NCBI GenBank assembly: GCA_947586185.1
Contig: CANPXN010000001.1
Location: forward strand, 1-64,000
Length of the DNA stretch: 64,000 bases
Direction: 5' to 3'
Source: an uncultured Clostridia bacterium
Lineage (GTDB): Bacteria; Bacillota; Clostridia; Oscillospirales; Ruminococcaceae
Shown: positions 38,238 through 44,577 of the stretch, piece after piece
Position numbering within the stretch: position 1 is the stretch's first letter
Layout of the letters: each line of letters starts with the position of its first letter
Translations under genes and position numbers: made by a program
The notes under the pieces: model-generated
Told to the model about the DNA's origin: nothing
What the model saw: only the letters and a program-made list of their open reading frames with translations
Databases searched by the model: none

Positions 38238-40169
38238 TTATCTTATATTCTGTTTGCCCTTGCGCAGCTTTTTCTGCTCATACATTTTCTGATCCGCTAT
38301 ACTGATAAGCTTGTAAAGAGGCTTGTTCACGCTTGCGGAGGTTATATGATAGCCTATGCTTGCAGCTATTGTATAAGGCTTATTGTATTTTTTATTGCAC
38401 TCGTCCAGATAGTCCGTTATCCGTCGGCTCATTCTTAAAGCGTCTTCTTCTTTGTAGCCTGATGCAAAAATAATGAACTCATCGCCGCCGAATCTTGCGC
38501 AGACCTCTCTGTCGGTGCGGCATACGCTTTTTATAGCGTCGGACATTCTGCAAAGTGCAAAGTCGCCCTCATTATGTCCAAAGTTGTCGTTTACATATTT
38601 AAGCCCATCCATGTCAATAAACATGATCATGACGCAGCCAAGCTCTTCGGCGCATTTTTGATATAAAGGCTCAGCGTTTTTTGAAAATCCGTGGCGGTTG
38701 TAGATCTGACCCAAAGGGTCGATTATATAGAGCCTGTCAAGCTCATCAACCATCTGATCGAGGCACATGATCTTTCTCACATTTTCAAAAGCATTGCTGA
38801 CGCTCATTACCCATGTATGGAAGACCTTGCTGACCAAAGGGAAATTCGTGTTGCACATAACACAATAGCCAAGACATCTGTCACGGAAGTGGATAGGCAT
38901 AAAGTAATACATATCGCACTTATTCGACTGGTTGAATATATCCGGCAGCATTTCATTTGAATTAAATGAATCATACTCCACGAATTTGCTATCAACATAT
39001 GCCAGCATAACATCCATTCTGTCCGTATAGCCTTCAGTAATGTATTCAGCGCGGGTTACGCTTTTATCAGTTCTTCTTGTGAATGCATAACCGCTGTTCC
39101 AATCGCTGCACATACATAGGAAGAATTTTTCGATTTTTAATTCTTGGACGAATTTTTTTAGGATATTTATGTTATCCCTTATTGAAACTGACTCCTCGAA
39201 GTCGCAGAACATCCTGTTGATCATAGGAACGTCAATGTTAATCGACTCAATAGTCCTGTAGTTGCTGCGCTTGTATTCCGGAATGCCGTTAAGGTTATCA
39301 AAGCTGCAACCACAGCTCTCACCGAAGATACACTTCGTATCAAGAATTTCAACTCTTTCAGTTTTTATTCCGTTGATATGCGAATATATTTTTTCACAGG
39401 CTTTATATCCGGATATTTTCAAAGGCCTTTCAACGGAAGTTATACTCGGAGAATAGTGCTTTGCAGCATAAATATTGTCAAAGCCTGCGATCATAATATC
39501 CTCTGGAACGCTTATGTCATTTTTTTGAAGCTCCACTGTTGCCGAGAGAGCCATTGCATCATTTGCGCAGATAATAACGTCTGGCAGCTCTTCACCTGAT
39601 GCAAGAAGCTTTCTTATAGCTTCTCTTCCGTCTTCTCCTCGGAAAGCTCCCCAAAAGATGCGGTTTTCCTCGACAGGAATGCCATGCTCCTCTAAAACAG
39701 TTTTATAAGCTTTAAGTCTGAGAGCGCTTTCCGGATTTTCACGAGGACCGGTAATATAATTAATTTTTTTGCAGTGGTGGCAATCAAGAAAATGTTCGAT
39801 CATTTCCTTCATTGCCTTGAAGTTGTCGATGCCAATATAATACATGTCACCGAAATCGTTGTCAACGCTTACAGCCGGAATTCCGGCATTTCTGACGGCA
39901 GAAGTAATTTCTTCTGTCTGCTCATCTGAAGATATAGTGTTTGTAAGCAGAATAACGCCGTCAACTTTATTGTAATTAACAAGCTTATAAATATTAAATT
40001 CACCGGCGTCATACATAGTGCTTTTGAGAATCCCGCCGAATGCAACGAAGTGAAGAAGATTGATATTCTTACCCTTTGCAAATTCATGAATACCTTTTAA
40101 AATGGTGTTCTGATATTCTTCGTCTATACCTGAAACTATTACAGCTATATTGATTTTTTTATTATCCAT
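38238..40169 (-). CDS. LacI-type periplasmic-binding-fold sensor fused to GGDEF (diguanylate cyclase-like)
   Basis: N-terminal PBP1/LacI ligand-binding fold without HTH; C-terminal ARFGGDEFIIFASG; likely start MDNKKINIAVIVSG at 40169 (ORF to 40241). Confidence 0.85.
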   Translation of the reverse strand: MDNKKINIAVIVSGIDEEYQNTILKGIHEFAKGKNINLLHFVAFGGILKSTMYDAGEFNIYKLVNYNKVDGVILLTNTISSDEQTEEITSAVRNAGIPAVSVDNDFGDMYYIGIDNFKAMKEMIEHFLDCHHCKKINYITGPRENPESALRLKAYKTVLEEHGIPVEENRIFWGAFRGEDGREAIRKLLASGEELPDVIICANDAMALSATVELQKNDISVPEDIMIAGFDNIYAAKHYSPSITSVERPLKISGYKACEKIYSHINGIKTERVEILDTKCIFGESCGCSFDNLNGIPEYKRSNYRTIESINIDVPMINRMFCDFEESVSIRDNINILKKFVQELKIEKFFLCMCSDWNSGYAFTRRTDKSVTRAEYITEGYTDRMDVMLAYVDSKFVEYDSFNSNEMLPDIFNQSNKCDMYYFMPIHFRDRCLGYCVMCNTNFPLVSKVFHTWVMSVSNAFENVRKIMCLDQMVDELDRLYIIDPLGQIYNRHGFSKNAEPLYQKCAEELGCVMIMFIDMDGLKYVNDNFGHNEGDFALCRMSDAIKSVCRTDREVCARFGGDEFIIFASGYKEEDALRMSRRITDYLDECNKKYNKPYTIAASIGYHITSASVNKPLYKLISIADQKMYEQKKLRKGKQNIR

Positions 40170-40655
40170 AATACACCGACCTGTACAATAATCCAATGTT
40201 TCTTCTACAATGATTGGGTTGAATTTTACTTTCAAATTCATTATACTACATGTGCAGAAATTTTTAAAGTGAAAAATCTAATTATTCCAAAAAAATTATC
40301 AGAATAAACAAATATACTTTTATGTTTTGTGCATAATTACCACATTTAAAACGATTAAAATATTTTATAATTAAAATTCTTTACATGCCGTAAAAACAAG
40401 GAACTTAAACGTTTAAATATAAAGGCGATCCCTTGCGATGTTTTTTTAAATATGTTATAGTAAAATTATCAAAATACAGGAGGGATTTTTCAGAAAGCTT
40501 GCGGCGTATTTTTTCATTAAAAGACAGGAATACAATAAAACTTTGTATAATTTGTGCAAAAAGCCCATAACATTTTTTATAAAAATATGCTATAATAATT
40601 ACAAGCAGAAATTTAAGAATTAATTATGGTTGGGTGTATTCAGGAGGTATAAATT

Positions 40656-41774: not shown

Positions 41775-41804
41775 ATAGGTTCTTTAAGAACAGTTTTTGA
41801 GAAA

Positions 41805-41828
41805 GTCAAGCGTTTGCTTGGCTTTTTT
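41805..41828 (+). terminator. Rho-independent terminator
   Basis: GTCAAGC gttt GCTTGGCTTTTTT. Confidence 0.7.
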
Positions 41829-41854
41829 ATTTGTATTTACAATGGACACGTATG

Positions 41855-41883
41855 TTGACATAAAAGCATGCAGGCTATATAAT
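41855..41883 (+). promoter_or_regulatory. Consensus sigma-A promoter for the TetM-like/NYN gene
   Basis: TTGACA-17 nt-TATAAT, about 30 nt upstream of the ATG at 41916. Confidence 0.85.
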
Positions 41884-41915: not shown

Positions 41916-44477
41916 ATGAAAAGACTTGTAACCGGTATACTTGCCCATGTTGACTCTGGGAAAACCACTTTGTCAGAGGCTTTGCTGTATCTTTCCGGAA
42001 TAGTCAGAAAGCCGGGCAGGGTGGATCATGGAGATACATTTCTTGACAACTATTCTCTGGAGCGGAGCAGGGGAATAACCATATTTTCAAAGCAGGCATC
42101 TGTGAGATACGGAGATACCGAGCTTATTCTGCTGGACACTCCGGGGCATGCGGACTTTTCGGCTGAAATGGAACGAACTATGCAGGTGCTTGACTATGCT
42201 GTACTGGTTATAAGCGGAACGGACGGAGTACAGAGCCATACGGAAACGCTCTGGAGGCTGCTTGTCAGATATAACATTCCGGTTTTCATTTTTGTGAACA
42301 AAATGGATATTGCGGGAGCTGACAAAAATGCCGTTATTAGTCAGCTTAAAAGCCGTCTTGATTACAGATGCGTTGACTTTTCCAGTACAGATTCTGAGGA
42401 CTTTTTTGAAGAGCTTGCCGAATGTGATGAGGAAATTATGCAGAGCGTACTGGAAAACGGACGTGCAGATGACGATAATATAAGACTTGCTGTAAAGCAC
42501 AGGAGAGTTTTCCCGTGTTGTTTTGGTTCGGCATTAAAAATGAAGGGCGTGGAGGAGCTTTTAACGCTTCTTGACAGATATGCGCTGGAGCCGGAGCGGA
42601 GAAAAGAGTTTGGTGCAAAGGTGTTCAAGATTTCCGAGGATGAGCAGGGAAATCGTCTTACGCATATGAAGATAACGGGAGGAAGTCTTAAAGTCAGATC
42701 AGCGCTTTCCGGAAACGGCTGGTCTGAGAAGATAAATCAGATAAGGATATATTCTGGAGCAAAGTTTTCGGCAGTGGATGAAGCTTTCAGCGGTATGATC
42801 TGTGCGGTAACAGGGCTTACAAAGACCTTTCCCGGTGAGGGTATCGGAGAAGAGCCGGATTCTGAAACACCTGTCCTTGAACCTGTGCTGTCGTATCGTG
42901 TGAGTCTGCCGGAGGGGATTGACCCCCATACAGCTCTTGTAAAGCTCAGAAAGCTTGAAGAGGAGGACCCACAGCTCCGTGTGGTGTGGAGCGAGGGGCT
43001 TCGTGAAATACATGTTCAGCTCATGGGAGAGATACAGCTTGAAATTTTAAGGAGCATTATTTCTGAACGTTTTCAGATGGATGTTGAATTTGACGAGGGA
43101 AGTATTGCATATAAGGAAACTATTGCCGACAAGGTTGAGGGGGTGGGCCATTATGAGCCGCTCAGACATTATGCCGAGGTGCATCTTATACTTGAACCCC
43201 TTGAAAGAGGAAAGGGTATGCAATTCTGTACTGACTGCCGTGAGGAATGCCTTGATAAAAACTGGCAAAGACTTGTTCTCACTCACCTTGAGGAGAAAAC
43301 TCATATAGGGGTACTGACCGGTTCTCCTGTGACAGATATTAAAATAACCCTTGCCGCAGGACGTGCTCACATAAAGCATACTGAGGGAGGGGATTTCAGA
43401 CAGGCAACCTATCGTGCTGTAAGGCAGGGACTGAGGTCTGCACAGAGCATACTCCTTGAACCGTGGTACAGCTTCAGGCTGGAAGTGCCTATGGAGACGG
43501 TGGGAAGGGCTATGTCGGATCTTCAGCAAATGAATGCTGATTTTGATCCTCCGGAAACAGCCGGGGATATATCCGTTATAAAAGGGAGCGCACCGGTAGC
43601 TCTTATGCGAGGCTATCAGACGGATATTAACGCATATACTCACGGAAAGGGAAGGCTTGTATGCTCCCTGAAAGGATATGAACCATGCCGCAGCACACAG
43701 GAGGTGATCGACAGGATTGGCTATAACGTTGACAGTGATATTGAAAACAGCGCCGATTCAATATTCTGTTCCCATGGCTCGGGGTATGTTGTGAAGTGGA
43801 ACGAAGTCCCGGAGCATATGCATGTTGAAAGCGTTTTAAAGCCGAAAAGGGAAAATGAGGATATACAAAGGGTGAATGCCAAAAGAGCCTCGGATTACTG
43901 TTCAAGACTTGCGGAAGACAAGGAGCTTATGGAGATCTTTGAGCGCACCTACGGTAAAATAAACCGTGACAGGAACACTGCTTTTCGCAAAAGGGTAAAG
44001 GCAGAGCCTGTAAATCAAAAGATAAAGCCTTTGCCGAAAGGTCCTGAGTATCTCCTTGTGGACGGATATAATATAATTTTTTCATGGGACGAGCTGAAAG
44101 CTGTCGCAAAGGAAAGTCTTGACCTTGCAAGGAGCGAGCTTGTGAATATTCTCTGTAACTATCAGGCATTCAGACAGTGTAATTTGATACTTGTTTTTGA
44201 CGCATATAAGGTAAAGGGAAATGTAAGAGAGGTTGAAAAGATTCATAATATAAGCGTTGTTTATACTAAGGAAGCGGAAACGGCGGATATGTATATTGAA
44301 AAGGTCACAAACGAGCTTGGAAAAAAGCATAGGGTAAGGGTTGCGACGTCTGACGGAATGGAACAGCTTATTATTCTCGGCAACGGAGCATATCGTGTTC
44401 CGGCATCGGAATTTCACGATGAGGTTGATGCCGCACAGAAAGCTATAAGGGAGTTTATAGAGAGGAATAATTCTTAG
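41916..44477 (+). CDS. TetM-like (ribosomal-protection/EF-G type) translational GTPase fused to C-terminal YacP/Rae1-like NYN nuclease domain
   Basis: G1 AHVDSGKT, G3 DTPGH, G4 NKMD, EF-G-like III-V region; C-terminal EYLLVDGYNIIFSWDEL ... LVFDAYKVKG ... KEAETADMYIEKV ... RVATSDGMEQ. Confidence 0.9.
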   Translation: MKRLVTGILAHVDSGKTTLSEALLYLSGIVRKPGRVDHGDTFLDNYSLERSRGITIFSKQASVRYGDTELILLDTPGHADFSAEMERTMQVLDYAVLVISGTDGVQSHTETLWRLLVRYNIPVFIFVNKMDIAGADKNAVISQLKSRLDYRCVDFSSTDSEDFFEELAECDEEIMQSVLENGRADDDNIRLAVKHRRVFPCCFGSALKMKGVEELLTLLDRYALEPERRKEFGAKVFKISEDEQGNRLTHMKITGGSLKVRSALSGNGWSEKINQIRIYSGAKFSAVDEAFSGMICAVTGLTKTFPGEGIGEEPDSETPVLEPVLSYRVSLPEGIDPHTALVKLRKLEEEDPQLRVVWSEGLREIHVQLMGEIQLEILRSIISERFQMDVEFDEGSIAYKETIADKVEGVGHYEPLRHYAEVHLILEPLERGKGMQFCTDCREECLDKNWQRLVLTHLEEKTHIGVLTGSPVTDIKITLAAGRAHIKHTEGGDFRQATYRAVRQGLRSAQSILLEPWYSFRLEVPMETVGRAMSDLQQMNADFDPPETAGDISVIKGSAPVALMRGYQTDINAYTHGKGRLVCSLKGYEPCRSTQEVIDRIGYNVDSDIENSADSIFCSHGSGYVVKWNEVPEHMHVESVLKPKRENEDIQRVNAKRASDYCSRLAEDKELMEIFERTYGKINRDRNTAFRKRVKAEPVNQKIKPLPKGPEYLLVDGYNIIFSWDELKAVAKESLDLARSELVNILCNYQAFRQCNLILVFDAYKVKGNVREVEKIHNISVVYTKEAETADMYIEKVTNELGKKHRVRVATSDGMEQLIILGNGAYRVPASEFHDEVDAAQKAIREFIERNNS

Positions 44478-44479
44478 TC

Positions 44480-44508
44480 TTGACATTTTTCATAAGATAT
44501 GTTATCAT
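44480..44508 (+). promoter_or_regulatory. Promoter of thi operon
   Basis: TTGACA-17 nt-TATCAT. Confidence 0.75.
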
Positions 44509-44542
44509 AAACAAAATAAAATATTTTTAATCTTGCAGCGTC

Positions 44543-44577
44543 AAAAGGGGTGCACCACCACGGGTGCATCCCTTTTT
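44543..44577 (+). terminator. Intrinsic terminator within the thiS leader
   Basis: AAAAGGGGTGCACC accac GGGTGCATCCCTTTTT between the promoter and thiS. Confidence 0.8.

Follow-up and report, generated by a model that had tools for sequence, protein, structure and literature searches.

A candidate ribosome-associated nuclease of Clostridia: a Rae1-type NYN domain fused to a translational GTPase of its own subfamily

Introduction

Proteins that join an EF-G-like GTPase to a C-terminal YacP-like NYN domain are already on record: Atkinson 2015 described the fusion in ten Clostridiales and suggested that it confers RNase-based tetracycline resistance (PMC4342817), and RefSeq carries such proteins under the names 'translation factor GTPase family protein' or 'TetM/TetW/TetO/TetS family'. 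As for the nuclease half, Rae1 (YacP) of B. subtilis is described as an endonuclease that works in the A site when a ribosome has paused (PMC10100781, PMC12320835, PMC6613710), and its gene lies next to yacO/rlmB (PMC6613710). A literature search for experimental work on the fusion, including ribosome rescue or mRNA cleavage, found none.

Here, we analysed a 64,000-nucleotide stretch (the window; positions 1 to 64,000 of contig CANPXN010000001.1, assembly GCA_947586185.1) from an uncultured Clostridia bacterium. It encodes a protein with the Atkinson 2015 architecture, an EF-G-like GTPase with a C-terminal YacP-like NYN domain in Clostridiales, and the remark in the preliminary description of this DNA that the architecture might already exist in databases was thus borne out. 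What is new, as read from sequence comparisons, is the placement of the GTPase in a non-TetM subfamily, a single ancient fusion, a wide spread, and the conserved residues of both modules.

Results

Gene and domain architecture

The fused gene is a single intact open reading frame of 853 amino acids (positions 41916-44477, forward strand) with an ATG start and no internal stops. A Pfam search found five EF-G/TetM-like domains followed by a complete NYN_YacP (Rae1) domain. The G domain (GTP_EFTU, E-value 1.4e-50; residues 5-223, positions 41928-42584) contains the P-loop AHVDSGKT, DTPGH with H78, NKMD, and GSAL, and it is followed by EF-G-like domains II and III (residues 232-393, positions 42609-43094; EF-G_D2 at 232-305 and EFG_III at 322-393), domain IV (EFG_IV; residues 395-510, positions 43098-43445), and domain V (EFG_C; residues 513-593, positions 43452-43694). 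The GTPase motifs together with domains II-V place the protein in the translational GTPases (EF2 family). Domain V continues into a family-specific C-terminal extension (residues 594-636, positions 43695-43823) with the motif DSxFCxHGxGxxVxWxEVxxxMH, and a variable linker (residues 637-710, positions 43824-44045) leads to the NYN_YacP domain (residues 713-852, positions 44052-44471), which matches Pfam with an E-value of 2.5e-49 and a score of 167.9 bits against a gathering score of 24.6.

Every motif quoted in the preliminary description (AHVDSGKT, DTPGH, NKMD, VDGYNII, FDAYK, TADMYIE, and ATSDGMEQ) was present in the frame, and both the intact GTPase with an EF-G-like body and the C-terminal NYN domain were recovered by the HMM search; all of its statements about the sequence held, while its interpretation was only partly supported. 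Because 80 distinct genome loci match the query across almost its full length, the fusion is neither a chance event nor an assembly artefact.

Promoter, leader and gene neighbourhood

Upstream of the gene lies a putative sigma-70-type promoter (TTGACA-17-TATAAT, positions 41855-41883, forward strand) that matches the consensus at 12 of 12 positions and would leave a leader of about 26 nt, as previously described. Terminator-like hairpins occur 5' of the gene (positions 41798-41829, from a motif scan) and 3' of it (positions 44543-44576, forward strand). Since the counts of promoter-like and terminator-like sites in the region are no higher than in shuffled sequence, only the perfect 12/12 promoter stands out. 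No Rfam family attained its gathering score near the gene, and no tet-type attenuator leader was found, in line with the earlier claim. Between the gene and thiS, positions 44480-44576 hold a promoter-like site (TTGACA-17-TATCAT, 11/12) and then the 3' hairpin, with no Rfam riboswitch match.

The upstream neighbours are CarD-like and cytidylate-kinase-like genes, and thiS lies downstream. An unfused GTPase gene elsewhere (locus L204, G472:C63) adjoins thiF/thiG-like genes, and the fused gene of the window precedes thiS/thiG; this proximity is probably a coincidence, as it did not recur in the other loci examined. On the reverse strand at positions 38238-40241, the window also encodes a 667-aa protein that combines a LacI-type sugar-binding sensor (Peripla_BP_3) with a GGDEF diguanylate cyclase domain. 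No conserved operon partner was found, the commonest recurrent neighbour being an ABC transporter in 19 of 115 loci; there is thus no conserved gene neighbour that points to a pathway, which counts against the explanation that we favour below.

The gene is chromosomal in the window and, as had been stated, shows no mobile element context. A plasmid or other mobile element was rejected as its origin, the plasmid matches of the fusion being few and on large replicons. A phage origin was set aside as well: the matching record MT835563 (L255, MT835563.1), labelled Bacteriophage sp., is unverified, and the genes that accompany the fused gene in it are ordinary bacterial ones (solute-binding protein, carbohydrate kinase, citrate transporter), so it is probably a mislabelled bacterial contig. 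MT835514 is a further match to the fusion. PADLOC gave no match, and a role in anti-phage defence was likewise dropped.

The GTPase forms a subfamily apart from TetM

The preliminary description had called the GTPase TetM-like, and the published suggestion (PMC4342817) and the TetM/TetW/TetO/TetS annotation of some members point the same way: a protein that protects the ribosome against tetracycline or another A-site antibiotic, its activity modified by the RNase domain (Atkinson 2015). Consistent with this, the overall fold is the same and the NCBIfam model tet_protect is the best NCBIfam match. However, the window protein scored 412-413 bits on that model against a cut-off of 775, whereas the EF-G of the same genome reached 392 bits and a real TetM 880; OtrA, at 688 bits, likewise fell under the cut-off. 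Four other subfamily members scored 377-416 bits. The protein is not EF-G proper either, with 315 bits on the EF-G equivalog model against a cut-off of 659.4. Domain IV is 27% identical to that of TetM and 26% to that of EF-G, and by HMM score and domain identity the protein is thus equidistant from the two.

The tip of domain IV separates the groups further. In the window protein the tip loop GRAHIKHTEGGDFR covers residues 482-495 (positions 43359-43400, forward strand), and the subfamily carries AHxKHTEG where TetM has YYSPVSTP with its Ser508-Pro509-Val510; an invariant H-x-K-H-T loop thus stands in for the residues with which TetM dislodges the drug. H485, K487, and H488, which replace TetM Y507, P509, and V510, showed no variation among the aligned proteins (56 of 56) or among the 81 fused proteins of a first set. 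All 56 aligned members thereby have Lys at the position of TetM Pro509, a residue that overlaps the drug site (PMC7456112), and His at that of Val510. The tip loops of the Ligilactobacillus salivarius and Paenibacillus proteins, which lie outside those sets, deviate in part and also lack Pro-Val. H485 of the subfamily falls at the position of EF-G H583. In a tree of domains I-V with EF-G as the outgroup, the subfamily (99/99) and TetM/O/S/OtrA (100/98) occupied separate branches.

By these comparisons the window protein is a member of its own GTPase subfamily and not a TetM-type protein, and the label 'TetM-like' was an overstatement; the accompanying view that the protein serves something other than plain tetracycline resistance agrees with the low model score and the replaced tip-loop determinants. 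Besides the scores, the tip loop, and the tree, an occurrence in roughly two-fifths of the sampled genomes of the class and a chromosomal gene with neither an attenuator leader nor a mobile context speak against the resistance reading, which we regard as quite improbable.

An unfused member on a Ligilactobacillus salivarius megaplasmid (L149:4986-6920, NZ_CP017108.1) is annotated as TetM/TetW/TetO/TetS and adjoins an rpsN copy; with 377 bits on tet_protect and no TetM loop, this is likely a false resistance annotation. The extension motif region matches 33 Ligilactobacillus plasmid records.

The NYN_YacP domain retains the Rae1 acidic residues

A phmmer search with the C-terminus identified B. 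subtilis YacP/Rae1 (5mq8/5mq9) as the nearest solved relative (E-value 6e-24). Rae1 D7, N10, D53, D81, and D104 correspond to D716, N719, D762, D791, and D813 of the window protein, and these five residues were invariant in two overlapping sets of fused proteins (81/81 and 50/50). We take Rae1 D7 and D81 to be catalytic residues. The acidic and Asn landmarks that had been read as YacP-like are therefore intact, with no loss of the aligned Asp residues. The match to the NYN_YacP profile ends at position 142 of 166, so that the final part of the Rae1 domain has either been lost or diverged, a point against the explanation favoured below.

By a crude motif test, 13 of 23 loci with a separate NYN gene have an RlmB-like gene next to it, as is the case for B. 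subtilis rae1, which marks the separate NYN genes as genuine rae1 orthologues. This proximity also suits a different function, in which the GTPase would bring the NYN domain to the rRNA of assembling or damaged ribosomes, and not to mRNA, as an rRNA/tRNA maturation or ribosome quality-control nuclease; NYN_YacP was formerly proposed for rRNA and tRNA maturation (cited in PMC4342817). Against such a role, Rae1, the one studied homologue, is reported to cleave mRNA on translating ribosomes, and the entire A-site tip of domain IV is conserved in the fusion, a feature that an assembly factor could do without. We consider this function improbable.

Conservation and predicted structure

The GTPase residues D13, K16, T17, D74, H78, N128, K129, and D131 did not vary in the aligned proteins (56 of 56) and, taken with the invariant Rae1-type acidic residues, suggest that both predicted activities are kept under selection. 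A few distant members outside the invariant-residue sets have an altered P-loop; in the divergent fused members L237 and L238 (from G467 and G616) AHVDSGKTT has given way to ASADTGKTT or ASADAGKTT. In another genome the fused gene is interrupted, leaving frames of 288 and 618 residues (L232, G458:C1 around 1370500-1372900), by pseudogene formation or sequencing error, and the unfused copy at L204 shows a similar break.

Conservation is highest in domain IV (0.73 among fused proteins, 0.62 from fused to unfused), ahead of the G domain (0.58 and 0.45, respectively). This fits a role of the A-site-facing tip; TetM, TetO, and TetS show the same ranking of domain IV above the G domain. Linker identity among fused proteins is 25%.

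AlphaFold2, run on 56 sequences with the plasmid-collection rows left out, gave a model with a mean pLDDT of 85 and a pTM of 0.64, in which domains I-V and the NYN domain are ordered. The extension (residues 594-634) was modelled as an ordered helix-strand-strand-helix element with a pLDDT of about 88, and the linker as a weak helix (646-679) followed by disorder (683-703), so that the NYN domain is predicted to be tethered and not rigidly positioned. EF-G structures ranked best in a Foldseek search.

Distribution and history of the fusion

The distribution of the subfamily was surveyed with a profile built from domain IV together with the C-terminal extension; the A1-based census used an E-value threshold of 1e-40 on genomes some of which are fragmented, and the class tallies, compared by hand from genome tables, may be off by a few. 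Among 388 genomes of the class, NYN_YacP occurs in 249 and the GTPase subfamily in 164 (about 40%), with both in 155, the GTPase without NYN in 9, and NYN without the GTPase in 94; neither module thus strictly needs the other. In about 12 of the 155 genomes with both, mostly of one family (f65), the two are separate genes, and in the rest they are fused. A phylum-wide sample gave the subfamily in 20 of 299 genomes, and the profile also matched shorter, unfused relatives in Ligilactobacillus salivarius, Paenibacillus, and Subdoligranulum. Unfused relatives measure about 640-670 aa and end directly after the extension motif, which is found in the subfamily both with and without NYN.

Within the order of the window, 74 of 81 NYN-bearing genomes carry the domain in a frame of more than 800 aa. 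The fused copy is the sole NYN_YacP in the genome of the window, and a second NYN gene is rare in fused genomes generally, which suggests that the fusion replaces the separate rae1-type gene.

The GTPase tree placed the fused proteins in one clade (100/100), which also takes in the unfused L. salivarius protein; placing that protein inside or outside the fused clade gave a p-AU of 0.336, the inside position implying NYN loss after the acquisition of a fused gene. In the NYN tree, free and fused copies likewise fell into separate groups (100/99), except that a single free copy (G479), probably a fission product, lay within the fused group; a tree with the fused NYN domains forced into one clade was not worse (p-AU 0.535). 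Both trees are most simply explained by one ancient fusion. Several independent fusions were considered and found unneeded, as each tree gives essentially one fused clade.

The occurrence of an unfused GTPase in the 9 genomes with no NYN and in Bacilli (L149, L156), the long, variable, and disordered linker, and the retention of the EF-G His583 position as His485 would all be compatible with a GTPase that acts alone as an accessory translocase or A-site clearing factor, its NYN domain being an independently acting passenger kept for co-expression or co-localisation. On the other side, a single fusion persists through most of the clade without damage to either part, and the near absence of a second, free NYN copy argues for coupled use; independent action of the two parts seems rather doubtful to us.

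Discussion

A working model for the fusion

The explanation that we favour, at about even chances, is that the fused protein is a chromosomal, probably housekeeping translation factor whose GTPase docks on stalled ribosomes and whose tethered Rae1-type NYN domain cuts mRNA, in effect a fused Rae1 delivered by a GTPase. Ribosome docking and A-site mRNA cleavage are here inferred from knowledge of the protein families, and the order of events and the trigger are guesses. The EF-G-fold GTPase would dock at the factor-binding site of a paused or stalled ribosome, its domain IV tip would probe or clear the A site (or translocate), and GTP hydrolysis would reset the GTPase, which would then withdraw. 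The NYN domain, which follows domain V at the end of a predicted flexible tether of roughly 70 residues, could cut the mRNA once the A site is free; alternatively, it might cut just ahead of the A site or elsewhere on the mRNA. The cut mRNA would then be handled by tmRNA and exonucleases, and tmRNA, which is encoded in the genome of the window, could rescue the ribosome.

EF-G and TetM place domain IV in the A site. With domain IV and Rae1 both expected there, simultaneous action is unlikely, and the modules should act in turn or at different sites. The original proposal that GTPase docking itself brings the nuclease into the A site therefore meets a probable steric conflict, judging from EF-G and TetM structures, in which domain IV fills that site. 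A more specific possibility, which we offer tentatively and with the chances somewhat against it, is a two-stroke machine: the GTPase would bind a stalled ribosome, use its EF-G-like domain IV to move the peptidyl-tRNA or another A-site occupant, and withdraw on GTP hydrolysis, whereupon the tethered Rae1 domain would enter and cut the mRNA. We know of no precedent for an mRNA endonuclease that delivers itself to its site on the ribosome in a GTP-dependent manner.

If the general model is true, it would link translational GTPases directly to mRNA cleavage on the ribosome, offer a handle on how Rae1-type enzymes reach the A site, and define a common translation factor of gut Clostridia. The two-stroke reading, if true, would make the unfused subfamily found in other Clostridia and in Bacilli an uncharacterised translation factor. 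Whether or not the model holds, the comparisons bear on resistome annotation: in these bacteria, as in Ligilactobacillus salivarius, the tetracycline determinants are missing from genes that go by the name 'TetM/TetW/TetO/TetS family tetracycline resistance'.

Comparison with known systems

The closest described proteins are the clostridial 'Tet'-NYN proteins of Atkinson 2015 (PMC4342817), which share the architecture and the bacterial group and of which the window protein is a member; they were filed under Tet, whereas the present analysis shows a separate subfamily without Tet determinants, occurring with and without NYN and far beyond ten species. Tet(M), Tet(O), and Otr(A) resemble the window protein in having five EF-G-like domains, a C-terminal extension, and an intact GTPase, but the window protein lacks the SPV tip loop, carries another extension, and combines its low domain IV identity to TetM with an HMM score at the level of EF-G. 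EF-G (FusA) provides its best structural matches and shares the tip His at the H583 position, yet loop I and the tip differ, and the genome of the window encodes a separate EF-G. Finally, the C-terminal domain is homologous to B. subtilis Rae1/YacP, with D7, D53, D81, and D104 conserved; while Rae1 stands alone, at about 170 aa and with its gene beside rlmB, the version in the window is attached to a GTPase and has a shortened C-terminal end.
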